From: Hyphomicrobiales bacterium
GTDB taxonomy: Bacteria > Pseudomonadota > Alphaproteobacteria > Rhizobiales > JAJFHR01
Length of the DNA: 64,000 nucleotides
Direction of reading: 5' to 3'
Assembly (NCBI GenBank): GCA_021775475.1
Contig: JAJFHS010000050.1
Location: 62,001-126,000, forward strand
Each line of letters opens with the position of its first letter. Positions within the stretch are counted from its first letter, which is position 1. Made by a program: the position numbers and the translations under genes. Below the pieces are notes generated by a model. It was not told the DNA's origin. It saw nothing but the letters and a program-made list of their open reading frames with translations, and made no database searches. Below are positions 2,759 through 56,727 of this stretch, piece by piece.

Positions 2759-3181
2759 ATGTCACTTGAGCGGACATTTTCCATTATCAAACCCGATGCC
2801 ACCCGCCGCAATCTCACCGGCAAGATTATTGCCAAATTTGAAGATGCAGGCTTGCGCGTTGTCGCTTCCAAGCGCATCCAGTTAAGCAAAGATCAGGCTG
2901 AAGGCTTCTATGGTGTTCACAAAGAACGGCCATTTTTTAATGATCTTGTCGCTTTCATGATTTCCGGCCCTGTCGTTGTTCAGGTGCTTGAAGGTGAAAA
3001 TGCCGTTGCCAAAAATCGCGAGGTTATGGGCGCAACCAACCCGGCAGATGCAGATGCAGGTACCATCCGCAAGGAATTTGCTGAATCAATTGAAGCAAAT
3101 TCAGTGCATGGATCCGATGCGCCTGAAACTGCAAAAGAAGAAATCGCCTTTTTCTTCAGCGATGATGAAATCGTCGGTTGA
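2759..3181 (+). CDS. ndk: Nucleoside diphosphate kinase
   Basis: Transfers the gamma phosphate between NTPs and NDPs through a phosphohistidine, balancing nucleotide pools in the cytoplasm. The 140-residue product starting [13 protein letters not shown] is full family length. The catalytic histidine lies in the conserved NSVHGSDA motif near residue 117, and the N-terminal KPDATRRN signature is intact. The ORF track extends 13 residues upstream, but the family N-terminus and an AGAAGGA ribosome-binding sequence fix the ATG at 2759. Single gene, followed 32 bp later by the molybdopterin oxidoreductase on the same strand. Confidence 0.98.
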
Positions 3182-3213
3182 TTTTGTGAAGTATAGGGTG
3201 TGGTATCACGCCT

Positions 3214-5298
3214 ATGTCCGATACCTCTAAAATTCACTATTCCACCTGTCCTCATGACTGCCCGTCCACCTGCGCTCTGGAAGTGGAAGTGCTGGACGTG
3301 AATACAATTGGCCGCGTGCGAGGCGCACGCGGCCATACCTATACCGATGGCATCGTCTGCGAAAAAGTGGCGCGCTATGCCGAGCGTATTCACCACCGCG
3401 ACCGTTTGCTGTATCCCTTAAAACGCATTGGTGCCAAAGGCTCGGGTGCGTTTAAGCGTATCTCTTGGGATCAGGCGATGGCGGAAACAGCGCAAGCCCT
3501 GTTAAAGGCCGAAGCCGAATTTGGGGCCGAAAGCGTGTGGCCATACTTTTATGCCGGAACCATGGGCCACATCATGCGCGATGGCATTGAAAGACTGCGC
3601 AATGCCAAAAAATATTCGGGTCAGCATTCAACTGTTTGCGTCACCCTTTCTCAGGCGGGCTTTTTAGCCGGTACCGGCAAGCTTGCCGGACCGGACCCGC
3701 GTGAAATCGCTCACGCTGACGTGGTGGTGATCTGGGGCACAAATCCCGTTCATACGCAAGTCAACCTGATGAGCCACGTGATCAAGGCGCGCAAGAAAAA
3801 CCGCACTAAAATCGTCGTTGTTGACGTCTATGAAAATCCGACCATGGCGCAAGCAGATCTGGGCCTCTGCGTTAATCCGGGCAGTGATGGCGCACTTGCC
3901 TGCGCGGTAATGCACATTCTGTTTCGTGATTGCCTTGCGGACAGGGATTACCTTTTAAAATACAGTGATTACCCAAATGAGTTCGAGCAACATCTGAAGA
4001 ACAAAACACCGCAATGGGCAGCAGAAATCACCGGATTGCCGGTTGAGAAAATAGAAACTTTTGCCAAATTGCTGGGCACCAGCAAGCGCAGTTACTTACG
4101 TTTAGGTTACGGCTTCACCCGTTCGCGCAATGGGGCGGTAAACATGCATGCCGCAGCGTCGATTGCCACGGTTTTGGGCGCATGGCAGCACAAGGGTGGC
4201 GGGGCTTTTCACGGCAACAATCACATTTATCACTGGGATAAAACCCTGATTGAAGGCCTTGATGTGCGCGACAAAACCGTGCGCATTCTCGATCAGGCCC
4301 GCATTGGTGCCATTTTAACCGACGACCCTATCGACATAGGCGATGGCCCTCCAGTCAAAGCCCTGTTCATTCAAAGCACCAACCCGATGGTGATTGCACC
4401 CGAACAGGAAAAGGTAAAACAGGGATTTGCCCGCGAGGATCTGTTTGTGTGTGTGCATGAGCAGTTCATGACCGAAACCGCATTGATGGCTGATATTATC
4501 CTGCCAGCGACAATGTTTCTCGAACATGATGATCATTACCAGGGTGGTGGTCACCAACACATTTCACTCGGGCCAAAGATTATCGACGCGCCCGGTGAAT
4601 GCCGCAGCAATCACGATGTCTTAAGTGATCTGGCCAAACGGGTAGGCGCCGAGCATCGCGGCTTTGATATGACGTCGCGAGAGATTACAGCGGAGACCTT
4701 GGAAAAATCGGGTTGGCGCGGGCTTGAAAACCTTGAGCGTGAAAACTGGTTCGACTGCCAGCCGGATTTTGACACAGCGCATTATATCAATGGTTTTGCT
4801 CATGATGATGGCAAATTTAAATTCAAACCGGACTGGCACAAGATATCACCGGTTAAACCCGGTGGCCTTGGACCGGTTGAAAATATGCCGGAATTTCCCG
4901 ATTATTGGGACGTGACGGAAAAAGCCGACCACGACCATCCCTTCCGGCTGGTAACGTCACCCTCGCGCGGGTTTTTGAACACATCGTTTAATGAAACCCC
5001 GACCTCACAGCAAAAAGAGGGCAGGCCGACCGCCCTGATCCACCCGGAGGATATGGCCCAACTGGGGATTGCCGAAGGCGCGCCGATTATTCTTGGTAAC
5101 CAGCGCGGGCAGGTGAGGGTGCATGCTCAAGGTTTTGAAGGCGTCAATCGTGGTGTGGTTATTGTTGAAGGACTGCACCCAAATCACGCATTCATTGACG
5201 GAAAAGGCATAAACACCCTGACCTCAGCCGAGGTGAGCGCACCCAACGGTGGCGCACCTTACCATGACACCCATATCTGGGTGAGATCGTCAGAATAG
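3214..5298 (+). CDS. Molybdopterin-dependent oxidoreductase (formate dehydrogenase/BisC-type superfamily)
   Basis: A 694-residue bis-MGD enzyme of the DMSO reductase superfamily. The N-terminal [4Fe-4S] motif is CPHDCPSTC with the fourth cysteine in GIVCEKV. Then come the Molybdopterin domain (about 55-480, with VVIWGTNPVHTQ) and a C-terminal molydop-binding beta-barrel (about 575-690). There is no twin-arginine signal, so it should be cytoplasmic. No electron-transfer subunit or molybdenum-cofactor gene is adjacent, so the partner and substrate are unknown. Homologues are usually annotated only as molybdopterin oxidoreductase family. It follows ndk closely but lacks a strong ribosome-binding site. 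Confidence 0.85.
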   Translation: MSDTSKIHYSTCPHDCPSTCALEVEVLDVNTIGRVRGARGHTYTDGIVCEKVARYAERIHHRDRLLYPLKRIGAKGSGAFKRISWDQAMAETAQALLKAEAEFGAESVWPYFYAGTMGHIMRDGIERLRNAKKYSGQHSTVCVTLSQAGFLAGTGKLAGPDPREIAHADVVVIWGTNPVHTQVNLMSHVIKARKKNRTKIVVVDVYENPTMAQADLGLCVNPGSDGALACAVMHILFRDCLADRDYLLKYSDYPNEFEQHLKNKTPQWAAEITGLPVEKIETFAKLLGTSKRSYLRLGYGFTRSRNGAVNMHAAASIATVLGAWQHKGGGAFHGNNHIYHWDKTLIEGLDVRDKTVRILDQARIGAILTDDPIDIGDGPPVKALFIQSTNPMVIAPEQEKVKQGFAREDLFVCVHEQFMTETALMADIILPATMFLEHDDHYQGGGHQHISLGPKIIDAPGECRSNHDVLSDLAKRVGAEHRGFDMTSREITAETLEKSGWRGLENLERENWFDCQPDFDTAHYINGFAHDDGKFKFKPDWHKISPVKPGGLGPVENMPEFPDYWDVTEKADHDHPFRLVTSPSRGFLNTSFNETPTSQQKEGRPTALIHPEDMAQLGIAEGAPIILGNQRGQVRVHAQGFEGVNRGVVIVEGLHPNHAFIDGKGINTLTSAEVSAPNGGAPYHDTHIWVRSSE

Positions 5299-26784: not shown

Positions 26785-26832
26785 TTATTGGTGAGCTACA
26801 TAAATTAGCACGAAAAATTGGTGGGAGGGCAC

Positions 26833-27693
26833 ATGCTGCGTCTTGAGGGATTGAGCAAACGATACAAGACCGGGGATCAGGCGTTGACCGACATCAATCT
26901 GGTCGTACCCAATGGCCAGGTGATGGCGCTAATCGGCCCTTCAGGAGCGGGGAAATCCACACTCATCAGATGTGTAAACCGGCTGGTGGAACCTACCAAG
27001 GGTAAAGTATTTCTGGGTGATCTGGAGTTGACCAAACTGGGTTCAGGTGCCTTGCGCCGCGCCCGGCGTAAAATGGGCATGATCTTTCAGGAGTACGCTT
27101 TGGTAGAGCGCCTGACAGTGATGGAAAACGTACTTTCCGGTCGCCTGGGATACGTCGGTTTTTGGACCAGCTGGACACGTAAATTTCCTAAAAAAGATAT
27201 TCAGGAAGCCTACCGGCTACTCGACCGTGTCGGGCTTATGCATATGGCTGACAAGCGTGCTGACCAACTTTCCGGTGGTCAGCGCCAGCGCGTTGGCATT
27301 TGCCGGGCGTTGATACAGAATCCCGATTTGCTATTGGTGGATGAACCTACGGCGAGCCTCGATCCCAAGACGTCGCGCCAGATCATGCGACTTATCAATG
27401 AATTGTGCGCCGAACGCGGGTTGGCTGCAATTATCAACATTCATGATGTGCTGCTGGCCCAGATGTATTCCCAGCGTGTGGTTGGACTGGAATTGGGAAA
27501 TGTCGTCTATGACGGACCACCTGATGGCCTGACACCGGAAGTGTTGACGAGAATTTACGGTGAAGAAGATTGGGAAGCAACCATCGAAAAGGTTGAGGAT
27601 GAAGATGAGGACGAAATTGGCGAAGAGATTGACGCCATATCTTCCCCCACCAAACCTGAACAAAAGACTATAGTCGCCAGCGGGGAAAGCTGA
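26833..27693 (+). CDS. phnC: Phosphonate-type ABC transporter ATP-binding protein
   Basis: 286 residues: Walker [14 protein letters not shown]-loop [17 protein letters not shown] (characteristic of PhnC), signature [11 protein letters not shown], Walker [13 protein letters not shown]. The C-terminal 35 residues are strongly acidic ([16 protein letters not shown]), an extension beyond the usual roughly 260-residue PhnC. I choose the ATG at 26833 after GGGAGG; the track start is a TTG 15 bp upstream. It leads a tightly spaced phnC-phnE-phnE-HAD operon. Confidence 0.92.
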
Positions 27694-27695
27694 TC

Positions 27696-28535
27696 ATGAG
27701 TGATACCTCTGCCGCAAATCCCGGCTCCAGTGGTGTTGGCATTACCTATCCCGCTAAATGGAAAAAACCACCCCTGATTACCAACCCCACATTGCGCTGG
27801 GGGCTGATACTGGGTTTTGCCATTTATCTGGCTCTGGCATTGGGAACAATGGACGTCAACTGGGGCAGGGTCTGGGAAGGGTTACCTCGCGGCCAACGCT
27901 TTATCGCGGCATTTTTTCCACCTGATTTCTCTGATAGCCGCAATGTGGTGTGGGATGGCATTCTGGAAAGCATGTGGATGGCTATTATTGCCACGGTGGC
28001 AGGAATTGCCCTTTCGGTCCCCGTTGGCCTGGGCGCGGCCAGTAACCTTGCCCCCAAATGGGTTTACCTGGCGTGCCGTTCTATTGTCGCTGGCTCGCGG
28101 ACATTTCCCGAAGTTATTCTGGCGATCTTTGCCGTTAAACTTTTTGGCTTTGGACCCTTTGCAGGCTTTATTGCACTTTCAATAGGAACCATTGGGTTTT
28201 TTGCCAAGCTGTTGGCGGAAGACATCGAAAACATGAGCGCTTCACAAGCCGAAGCGATCAAGGCCACCGGGGCATCATGGTTCCAGTGGGTCAATTACGC
28301 CATTCAACCACAAGTTATGCCACGCATGATCGGGCTTTCGGTCTATCGTCTGGACATCAATTTTCGCGAATCAGCCGTTGTCGGCATCGTTGGCGGCGGC
28401 GGTATCGGGGCTACCTTGAATACTGCGTTTGACCGCTATGAGTTTGATACCGCTGCTGCAATCCTATTGATTATCATTGGCATTGTTATGGTGCTGGAAT
28501 ACGCCTCGGGTTATTTGAGAAAGTGGGTGCAGTAA
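27696..28535 (+). CDS. phnE: Phosphonate-type ABC transporter permease 1
   Basis: 279 residues with about six membrane segments. The PhnE-specific coupling region is visible as SASQAEAIKATGASWFQWVNYAIQPQVMP (EAA loop contacting PhnC), followed by the conserved FRESAVVGIVGGGGIGATL. It begins 2 bp after phnC. Two PhnE genes in tandem suggest a heterodimeric channel. Confidence 0.92.
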   Translation: MSDTSAANPGSSGVGITYPAKWKKPPLITNPTLRWGLILGFAIYLALALGTMDVNWGRVWEGLPRGQRFIAAFFPPDFSDSRNVVWDGILESMWMAIIATVAGIALSVPVGLGAASNLAPKWVYLACRSIVAGSRTFPEVILAIFAVKLFGFGPFAGFIALSIGTIGFFAKLLAEDIENMSASQAEAIKATGASWFQWVNYAIQPQVMPRMIGLSVYRLDINFRESAVVGIVGGGGIGATLNTAFDRYEFDTAAAILLIIIGIVMVLEYASGYLRKWVQ

Positions 28536-28536
28536 T

Positions 28537-29349
28537 ATGCCATTGATTGAAACCAGTGATGGACCGATGTGGCGTCGTCGTGCCACCAAAAAACAACTCT
28601 TGATTTGGCTGGGATGGTTGGTTGGCATCGCGATTGCAACCTATGCATGGCAGTTGATTTCTGAAAAAACCATTTGGTTTTTTGTCGAGGACGCTCCCCG
28701 GCAGGCAGCTGATATTGGCACCCGCATGATCCCGCCAAAATGGTCCTATATGAATGAATTGTGGCGCCCGGTGTGGGATACACTCAATATTGCCACTCTG
28801 GGCACAGTGATAGCGCTGATTATAGCCATTCCGGTAGCCTTTGCCGCTGCAAAAAACACAACCCCCCATCCCCTGGTTCGCGCTGTGGCGCTGTTTATCA
28901 TCGTGTCTTCACGCTCAGTCAATTCATTGGTCTGGGGCTTGATCCTGGTGCTTATTGTCGGCCCCGGTGTGTTGGCCGGGACAATCGCCATCGGCCTCAG
29001 GTCAATCGGGTTTTGTGCCAAGCTGTTGTACGAAGGCATTGAAGAAATCGATCATACTCAAGTTGAAGCCATTGAAGCCACCGGAGCGAGCCGGGCGCAG
29101 CAGATGCTTTATGGCATTGTGCCGCAGGTATTGCCAACCTTCGCCGGTGTCGGCGTCTTTCGCTGGGATATCAATATTCGTGAATCGACTATTTTGGGGC
29201 TGGTGGGTGCTGGTGGCATCGGACTGGAACTGAATGGCTCCATCAATACGCTGGCCTGGACGCAGGTATCGATGATCCTGCTGGTTATTCTGGTGACGGT
29301 GATCATCTCCGAGTGGGTCTCAGCCAGAGTGCGTGGCGCCATCATTTAG
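28537..29349 (+). CDS. phnE: Phosphonate-type ABC transporter permease 2
   Basis: 270 residues, PhnE family, with the coupling loop HTQVEAIEATGASRAQQMLYGIVPQVLP and INIRESTILGLVGAGGIGLEL. It starts 1 bp after the first permease gene and shares its fold but is clearly diverged, as expected for the second half of a heterodimer. An AYAWQ-containing first helix near residues 20-45 is preceded by a basic cytoplasmic tail (WRRRATKKQ). Confidence 0.92.
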   Translation: MPLIETSDGPMWRRRATKKQLLIWLGWLVGIAIATYAWQLISEKTIWFFVEDAPRQAADIGTRMIPPKWSYMNELWRPVWDTLNIATLGTVIALIIAIPVAFAAAKNTTPHPLVRAVALFIIVSSRSVNSLVWGLILVLIVGPGVLAGTIAIGLRSIGFCAKLLYEGIEEIDHTQVEAIEATGASRAQQMLYGIVPQVLPTFAGVGVFRWDINIRESTILGLVGAGGIGLELNGSINTLAWTQVSMILLVILVTVIISEWVSARVRGAII

Positions 29350-54749: not shown

Positions 54750-56225
54750 ATGAATACAACCGAGCAGAATAAAAACCCTCCATCAAAGAACATGAAACAG
54801 GTCTTCCTGTCCTGGTGGTCTGCGAATAACGTGTCGTATATTCTACTGGCGATAGTTTTCGCAAGCGTGCTCAGCAGCGGCTATTATTATACATCCAGCT
54901 ATAAATTCAGCCAGAGAATTAGTGAAAACAAAAAAACACTACTCGAACTTGTCACGGCATTTGTTTCGATATATTCGCAGCAAAGAACATTGGACAATAA
55001 ACAGCATCTGCCCATGCCAGATGCATTCAGGAAATCATCCCTGAGGCTTTTTGATAAAGTAAATTCTGTTGATTATGGTATCCGCATCAAAATTATTAAG
55101 CTGGCTGGATCGGCGGTAAGACCCAATCCACCTGATGAGCAGATTACCAAAATTATTACCCGAATGTCGACTGAGCAATCCCCCGAAATCTGGAGTGGGT
55201 ATGTTGGTGGGGTTGGTAAAGAGATACTGCGAACCATCGAACCGGTGCTGATTGCCGGGAAAAGCGGCATAACCGGCTCGGTGACGAGCGCCTACGTTAT
55301 TGATGTGCCAACCAGTGGGTTTTTTAAAAAACTACGTCTCGAAGCGGGTGCTTTGGCCCTTGTCGCGTTCCTGTTTTTGTGGGGCAGCATTGCCTATTTC
55401 ATGCAGCAACAGGCCCGCATCGTGTCAGTTAAAGCAGAAAACCTGCGCGGAAGTGAACGAAGGTCCATGCTTTCAGAGGCAAAAAAGCAGGCGGAAAATG
55501 AGACCGCAAAACTCTCTGCCCAGGTTCGTAAAGCCTACGAAGACCTGCGACAGGCATTAACCAAGGAAAGAGAGCTCAACGCCCTCCAGCGCCTGGAACG
55601 CCGTGCTGAAAAATTTGACAATTCTGTCGAAATTACCAAACGCGCCGTAAAAATAAGAGGTGCTGTTGAACGCATGACCAGAGTGATGGAAAGCACCTTG
55701 ACGGCGGCGAGCCTGGATATTGGCAGGCTGTCTATAAATGTCGAGCCGTGTGATATAGCCCAGCAGTTAAATGACGCATGTCAGCGCCAGATGGAGTTGA
55801 CCGGGTCGCACAATATTTCCTGCGATGTTTCCGACCTGCCGGCAACAATCCAGGCCGACCCCGGGTCTTTGGAGCAGATATTCTCCAATTTGCTGTCAAA
55901 TGCCGTTAAATATTCGCCCAACGCACCGGATATTAATGTGCGGGCTTACTGCGAAGGCGACGAGGTGGTGCTGAGCGTCTGTGATCAAGGGCTTGGTATT
56001 GATGAAGAAGATTTACCACGCGTGTTTGAACGATTTTTCCGCGCCAGAACCGCAACCGGCATAGCGGGGTCCGGTATCGGTCTCAATCTGATTAAGATCC
56101 TGATTGAGTTGCATGATGGATCGATAACTCTGGAAAGCATCATTAACAAAGGAAGCACCTTCACAGTACGCTTGCCTATAGACGGGCCTGAAGAAATTGC
56201 TGCCAAAAGCGATGAGGCCGCTTGA
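54750..56225 (+). CDS. Sensor histidine kinase lacking a recognisable H-box
   Basis: 491 residues. Membrane segments at about 27-50 and 203-225 enclose a sensor region of about 150 residues. A coiled coil follows (about 230-290). The ATPase domain is complete: N-box NLLSNAVKYSPN, G1 DQGLGID, F-box FERFFRA, G2 GSGIGLNL. The dimerisation helix should carry a SHEFRTPL-type phosphoacceptor motif, but the sequence passes straight from LNALQ to RLERRAEKFDNS near residue 280. No histidine is present until well past the helix. Related kinases, as I remember them, have about 21 residues with the H-box here, so an in-frame deletion is likely. It is paired with the receiver gene at 56311. Confidence 0.85.
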   Translation: MNTTEQNKNPPSKNMKQVFLSWWSANNVSYILLAIVFASVLSSGYYYTSSYKFSQRISENKKTLLELVTAFVSIYSQQRTLDNKQHLPMPDAFRKSSLRLFDKVNSVDYGIRIKIIKLAGSAVRPNPPDEQITKIITRMSTEQSPEIWSGYVGGVGKEILRTIEPVLIAGKSGITGSVTSAYVIDVPTSGFFKKLRLEAGALALVAFLFLWGSIAYFMQQQARIVSVKAENLRGSERRSMLSEAKKQAENETAKLSAQVRKAYEDLRQALTKERELNALQRLERRAEKFDNSVEITKRAVKIRGAVERMTRVMESTLTAASLDIGRLSINVEPCDIAQQLNDACQRQMELTGSHNISCDVSDLPATIQADPGSLEQIFSNLLSNAVKYSPNAPDINVRAYCEGDEVVLSVCDQGLGIDEEDLPRVFERFFRARTATGIAGSGIGLNLIKILIELHDGSITLESIINKGSTFTVRLPIDGPEEIAAKSDEAA

Positions 56226-56310: not shown

Positions 56311-56727
56311 ATGCCAACCATTCTGTGTATTGAAGATGAACTTTTGGTTCGGGAAGACATTGTTGAAGAACTGGAAGATTCCGGTTACGACGTTCTGGTA
56401 GCCGATGATGGCGCCAAAGGGCTGGAAATGATCCTTGGACACAAACCAGATCTCGTTATATGCGACATTACAATGCCGCAAATGGATGGTTTTCAGTTGC
56501 TGCAAGAAATTCGCGGTAAATACAAATTGATGGCTGATATGCCATTCATTTTTCTTTCCGCCCTGGCAGATGAAGAACACGTGATAGACGGTTTGAAAGA
56601 GGGGGCGGACAACTATCTTACCAAACCGGTTGATTTTGACATGCTCAAAGCCACGGTTGAATCCTCTTTGCGGCAAATTGCCCGCATCAAATACAAAAAC
56701 GAAGACATCTGCGTTCTCGATATCTGA
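56311..56727 (+). CDS. Single-domain response regulator (receiver)
   Basis: 138 residues, one REC domain and a short tail without a DNA-binding module. Acidic pocket IEDELL, phosphoacceptor Asp in LVICDITMPQMDG, conserved Ser in FLSALAD, and Lys in YLTKPVD. The tail (IARIKYKNEDICVLDI) is too short for an output domain. It follows the kinase by 85 bp on the same strand, with AAAGGAG before the ATG. It may act by protein contact or as a phosphate relay. Confidence 0.93.
   Translation: MPTILCIEDELLVREDIVEELEDSGYDVLVADDGAKGLEMILGHKPDLVICDITMPQMDGFQLLQEIRGKYKLMADMPFIFLSALADEEHVIDGLKEGADNYLTKPVDFDMLKATVESSLRQIARIKYKNEDICVLDI

Follow-up and report, generated by a model that had tools for sequence, protein, structure and literature searches.

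In the 64,000-nucleotide stretch of a Hyphomicrobiales genome analysed here (the window; contig JAJFHS010000050.1, positions 62,001 to 126,000), a sensor histidine kinase of 491 residues lacks its phosphoacceptor H-box, and comparison with an orthologue supports a clean in-frame loss of 69 bp between short direct repeats. It is likely that this is a recent loss-of-function deletion in a dispensable sensor kinase that was already eroding. The features discussed are collected in Table 1.

Table 1. Features of the kinase-regulator locus (window coordinates).
Feature	Position	Strand	Evidence
H-box-less sensor histidine kinase gene, 491 aa	54750..56225	+	ORF and translation, Pfam, 528-aa orthologue in G002
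Sensor junction; Cys-x-x-Cys loop of probable c-haem Cache-type sensor missing, 14 residues net	55260..55293	+	Alignments with orthologue and 8 sensor homologues
Linker helix into junction, residues 216-280, dN/dS 0.04	55395..55589	+	
Deletion junction, single CCAGCGCC left	55586..55593	+	DNA alignment, BLASTN breakpoints, own-genome single-copy check, position check
DHp remainder (alpha1 end and alpha2), residues 281-326, dN/dS 0.05	55590..55727	+	
N-box NLLSNAVKY, intact	55887..55913	+	Sequence read, position check
G1 box DQGLGI, intact	55983..56000	+	Sequence read, position check
F box ERFFRA, intact	56028..56045	+	Sequence read, position check
G2 box GSGIGL, intact	56067..56084	+	Sequence read, position check
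Partner single-domain response regulator, 138 aa, intact receiver	56311..56727	+	Pfam Response_reg E 1e-28

The kinase starts with an apparent TM segment at its N-terminus, followed by a sensor region and another TM segment; a long linker helix then leads to the end of the DHp region and to a full HATPase_c domain (Pfam, E 4e-28). A Pfam match to HisKA is absent at E<=1. Around the junction the translation reads ...KERELNALQRLERRAEKFDNSVEITKRAVKIRGAVERM..., with ELNALQ followed immediately by RLERRAEKFDN, and its inspection revealed neither SHExRTPL nor any histidine in the dimerisation helix. Of the features of a functional HisKA-type kinase, the protein thus has the HATPase_c domain with N, G1, F and G2 boxes and lacks the phosphoacceptor histidine in DHp alpha1. 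Annotation from the ATPase domain alone would make it a normal histidine kinase, which in the canonical sense the 491-aa protein cannot be.

We searched 60 related genomes, two of them congeneric, as well as a genome collection, and found one clear orthologue, a 528-aa kinase from the congener G002 (JAJRTY010000002.1, MAG Dive96_bin10.136) with a HisKA match at E 1e-10. The collection scan for further orthologues returned the same congener and one distant kinase. Where the window kinase reads LQRLERR the orthologue has LQRQFISMASHEFRTPLAIIDGAAQRLERR; the DNA alignment shows that exactly 23 codons, or 69 bp, are missing, corresponding to the peptide RQFISMASHEFRTPLAIIDGAAQ. In the orthologue this piece is flanked by two CAGCGCC direct repeats 69 bp apart (CTTCAGCGCCAGTTC...GCCCAGCGCCTCGAACGC, against CTCCAGCGCCTGGAACGC in the window). 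The window retains a single CAGCGCC at 55587..55593, the other copy and the DNA between the repeats being gone. BLASTN places the break identically: one piece ends at 55593 (G002:28800) and the next starts at 55586 (G002:28738), leaving 69 bases missing. At a random junction, a match of at least 7 bp would be expected with a probability of about 4e-4, assuming uniform base composition. Short-repeat deletion is therefore a good explanation, with the caveat that the orthologue compared is not the ancestor; slipped-strand or other short-repeat deletion is the mechanism we infer. The 69 bp took with them the H-box and the phosphatase Thr, as well as the greater part of DHp alpha1 beyond the His. 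To our knowledge, it is uncommon for the H-box segment alone to be cut out so precisely, the rest staying in frame. An identical H-box-deleted kinase did not surface among the titles and abstracts covered by a literature search that was not systematic.

The preliminary description of this gene is borne out in what it observed and in part of its interpretation. It reported intact N, G1, F and G2 boxes, in agreement with the Pfam HATPase_c match and the boxes as read, and the absence of SHExRTPL and of any helix histidine, in agreement with the translation and the missing HisKA match. Its Gln-Arg on either side of the junction is confirmed, and its suggestion of in-frame recombination between short repeats is supported by the CAGCGCC repeats and the exact 69-bp gap. 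The in-frame loss of the H-box stands, but its estimate of about 21 residues has to be corrected to 23. The frame and the partner receiver gene are preserved as stated, the latter by its Response_reg match and by an orthologue in G002 that occupies the same place and is 95% identical.

The genome is a draft of 76 contigs, which leaves some room for an artefact in which 69 bp were dropped from the assembly or the deletion belongs to a minority strain. We consider this improbable. The junction is exact, single-copy in its own genome and lies inside a 160-kb contig, and no second copy of the deleted-region segment was found in that genome. The repeats are merely 7-8 bp long, and an exact 69-bp drop is atypical of short- or long-read error. 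Among the window ORF pairs compared with the congener, this kinase is the sole gene with protein gaps of more than 10 residues, having two, of 14 and 23 residues, and neighbouring orthologues show no similar gap. The comparison used BLASTP local alignments of stop-to-stop ORFs, from which a gap near an ORF end could escape; it was aimed at large gaps rather than at every indel or frameshift, and so backs the assembly quality in part only.

The preliminary description had raised the question of whether homologues share the H-box loss. They do not: SHE[FL]RTPL is present in the orthologue and in all sampled family members, and the paralogues on contigs C15, C57 and C67 of the same genome retain SHEFRTPL. 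The idea that the kinase belongs to a family natively lacking the H-box, or using another phosphoacceptor, is therefore rejected for the relatives sampled. No helix histidine replaces the missing one, nothing was found in favour of the idea, and we give it next to no credence. The C15 and C57 kinases have nearly the same alpha1 sequence, and the C57 kinase has its own receiver, 59% identical to the receiver at 56311. The C67 kinase is itself frameshifted at the N-box (G000:C67 near 15165), the G002 counterpart (C99) being open. In another region of the same genome, G000:C44:22446-22811, a receiver match within a hybrid kinase region runs through one TGA, which the G002 counterpart (C120) does not have.

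The H-box gap was the only lesion known from the preliminary description; the sensor domain has eroded as well. The orthologue sensor has SCTDCNGLPPKFDKTGKPHAV where the window kinase has SGITGSV, a net loss of 14 residues. Other families of the class gave nine sensor matches, the homologues being 22-30% identical, and eight of the nine could be aligned. All eight contain CxxCH, seven as CxxCHN. The orthologue has CTDCN, lacking the motif's His, and in the window kinase the whole loop is missing. CxxCH is the defining motif of DUF3365/Tll0287, a Cache domain with covalently bound c-haem that has NO-sensor properties when fused to signalling modules (PMC12889525). The orthologue matches PF11845 (Tll0287-like) weakly, at E 0.03 and below the cut-off, and the window protein has no such match. 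The window sensor, in which the haem-attachment motif is absent, probably descends from a c-haem sensor and has probably lost the haem-binding sensing loop too. The c-haem Cache HisKA kinases (DUF3365/Tll0287, sCache_heme; PMC12889525) resemble the window protein in an apparent two-TM sensor, the linker, DHp alpha2, a HATPase_c domain in which every ATP box is present, and a partner receiver gene downstream; the orthologue has HisKA intact. The window protein differs from them in having neither an H-box nor a CxxCH loop, and in having lost the greater part of DHp alpha1 beyond the His. A diverged junction in the sensor, set against the clean one at the H-box, suggests that the sensor loss came before the H-box loss.

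Autophosphorylation of HisKA kinases requires the His. The adjacent E/D is needed for kinase activity and the T/N for phosphatase activity (PMC3510030). Altering the docking module of DivL disrupts its binding of the receiver, and positions immediately following the phosphoacceptor site are among those with this effect (PMC4211667). The alpha1 residues next to the His, equivalent to the RR-docking residues of DivL, fall within the deleted 23, and with most of its alpha1 part deleted the RR-docking module (alpha1C and alpha2N) is not retained. The phosphatase Thr/Asn of H-E/D-x-x-T/N is likewise gone. Because the His, the phosphatase Thr and the docking alpha1 residues are deleted, we expect none of the canonical activities (kinase, phosphotransfer or phosphatase) to survive. 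The phosphatase role entertained in the preliminary description is therefore unlikely judging from the sequence; the in-frame deletion, the intact ATPase core and the intact receiver hold. Cross-phosphorylation of the 56311 receiver by paralogous kinases is plausible, given the near-identical alpha1 of the C15 and C57 kinases and the similarity of the C57 receiver.

We calculated Nei-Gojobori dN/dS between the window and the orthologue. The TM and sensor region gave 0.25, the linker 0.04, the DHp remainder 0.05, the ATPase domain 0.08 and the receiver ORF 0.07; residues 216-478, from linker to ATPase, gave 0.064. These low values mean that the kinase core was constrained for most of the divergence, so that either the deletion is recent or the shortened protein is still under selection. 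With the upper Poisson bound, and assuming equal branch lengths, neutral evolution can account for no more than about 9-19% of the window branch, according to the background chosen, which fits a recent loss. Changes in the core, polarised with paralogues, number 10 on the window side and six on the orthologue side (p = 0.45), a crude comparison with outgroups only about 50% identical.

The locus has a history of its own in the genus. In the third congener, G001 (83% complete), radC (C143:2840-3541) and a 264-aa neighbour (C143:3640-4395) are separated by 98 bp of a single contig, and the kinase-regulator pair is absent from between them, with nothing in its place (region C143:1000-6500). The best kinase and receiver matches in G001 are a different pair, on C398. 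Because this locus lacks the pair, the genome comparison indicates that the pair is dispensable in the genus; either G001 would have lost it, or the common ancestor of the window's genome and G002 would have acquired it. In G002, radC (2863..3324) is cut by a stop to 153 aa, compared with 234 aa in the window and an open frame of 237 aa in G001. Elsewhere in the window, three consecutive genes (26809..29346) have dS values against the congener of 1.6-2.3, the rest of the window having about 0.2-0.9, as if the stretch had come into one of the genomes by another route, through replacement or horizontal transfer.

The explanation we prefer, recent decay, draws on the orthologue with its intact H-box and exact 69-bp difference, on SHEFRTPL in every sampled paralogue, on the second lesion in the sensor loop, the loss of the phosphatase Thr, the dispensability of the pair and the C67 frameshift. 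The 69-bp in-frame deletion between CAGCGCC repeats would have inactivated a HisKA-type kinase gene in this lineage. Its product would be unable to autophosphorylate, to transfer phosphate or to dephosphorylate its regulator, leaving the pathway through this kinase dead, and the 56311 receiver, if still used, would be phosphorylated by the same-genome paralogous kinases with a near-identical alpha1 docking helix. The gene would be an early-stage unitary pseudogene, owing its still gene-like appearance to a lesion that is recent and keeps the frame. Counting against decay are the absence of a later stop codon or frameshift in the kinase gene, core substitutions without a clear excess on the window branch, and a sensor loss that looks older than the H-box loss, yet left the core constrained. 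These points also fit a protein still in use.

Such a protein could be a maintained pseudokinase. Bound to the membrane, it would still bind ATP and, transferring no phosphate, would serve a paralogous kinase or the 56311 receiver as an allosteric partner or an ATP-dependent switch; DivL (PMC4211667) and the ChrS pseudokinase (PMC9491836) are precedents. The four intact ATPase boxes, the dN/dS of 0.04-0.08 from linker to ATPase domain next to 0.07 for the receiver, and the paralogous kinases with near-identical alpha1 are all compatible with this. We nevertheless hold it to be unlikely, as the low dN/dS may entirely predate the deletion and the sensor cofactor motif has been lost too. DivL binds DivK~P while acting neither as kinase nor as phosphatase (PMC4211667). 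It is also alphaproteobacterial and also keeps its HATPase without the phosphoacceptor His. In DivL, however, the His is changed to Tyr, the DHp fold and docking module are intact, and the Tyr is conserved across orthologues; in the window kinase the segment homologous to the docking residues is deleted, in one genome only, and the single orthologue found keeps the His. AlphaFold models of the deleted and full-length forms, built from two sequences, had mean pLDDT values of 41 and 39, too low to judge dimerisation through a DHp four-helix bundle. The ChrS pseudokinase, from Corynebacterium laboratory evolution, raised output via cross-phosphorylation by HrrS (PMC9491836), and as in the window a recent lesion disables a kinase whose regulator can be served by a paralogous one; in ChrS, though, a frameshift took away the ATPase domain and the His stayed, the reverse of the present case. 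A little less likely again is that selection keeps the H-box-less protein specifically as an ATP-binding, non-phosphotransferring membrane regulator of a paralogous kinase or its own receiver, the haem loop and phosphoacceptor having been shed. The intact boxes and the paralogues with intact His would also allow a trans-acting ATPase that phosphorylates the His of a paralogous kinase within a heterodimer. This is very improbable: such a heterodimer needs a matching DHp bundle, 23 alpha1 residues are lost, and the C15 and C57 paralogues have, on our reading, PAS-like, non-matching N-terminal regions. Simple decay fits the parallel erosion of the sensor better than a pseudokinase or trans-ATPase role would.

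Degenerate histidine kinases are of a known kind, and the present one is probably a case of decay rather than of a new mechanism. Should the deleted form prove to be maintained, one could learn from it, as a natural test, whether a kinase remains of use when the whole DHp phosphoacceptor segment is missing. As a decaying gene, it would clearly capture a two-component system in the process of falling apart: the cofactor loop and the phosphoacceptor are lost, the ATPase core and the regulator stay, and the pair is absent in the third congener.
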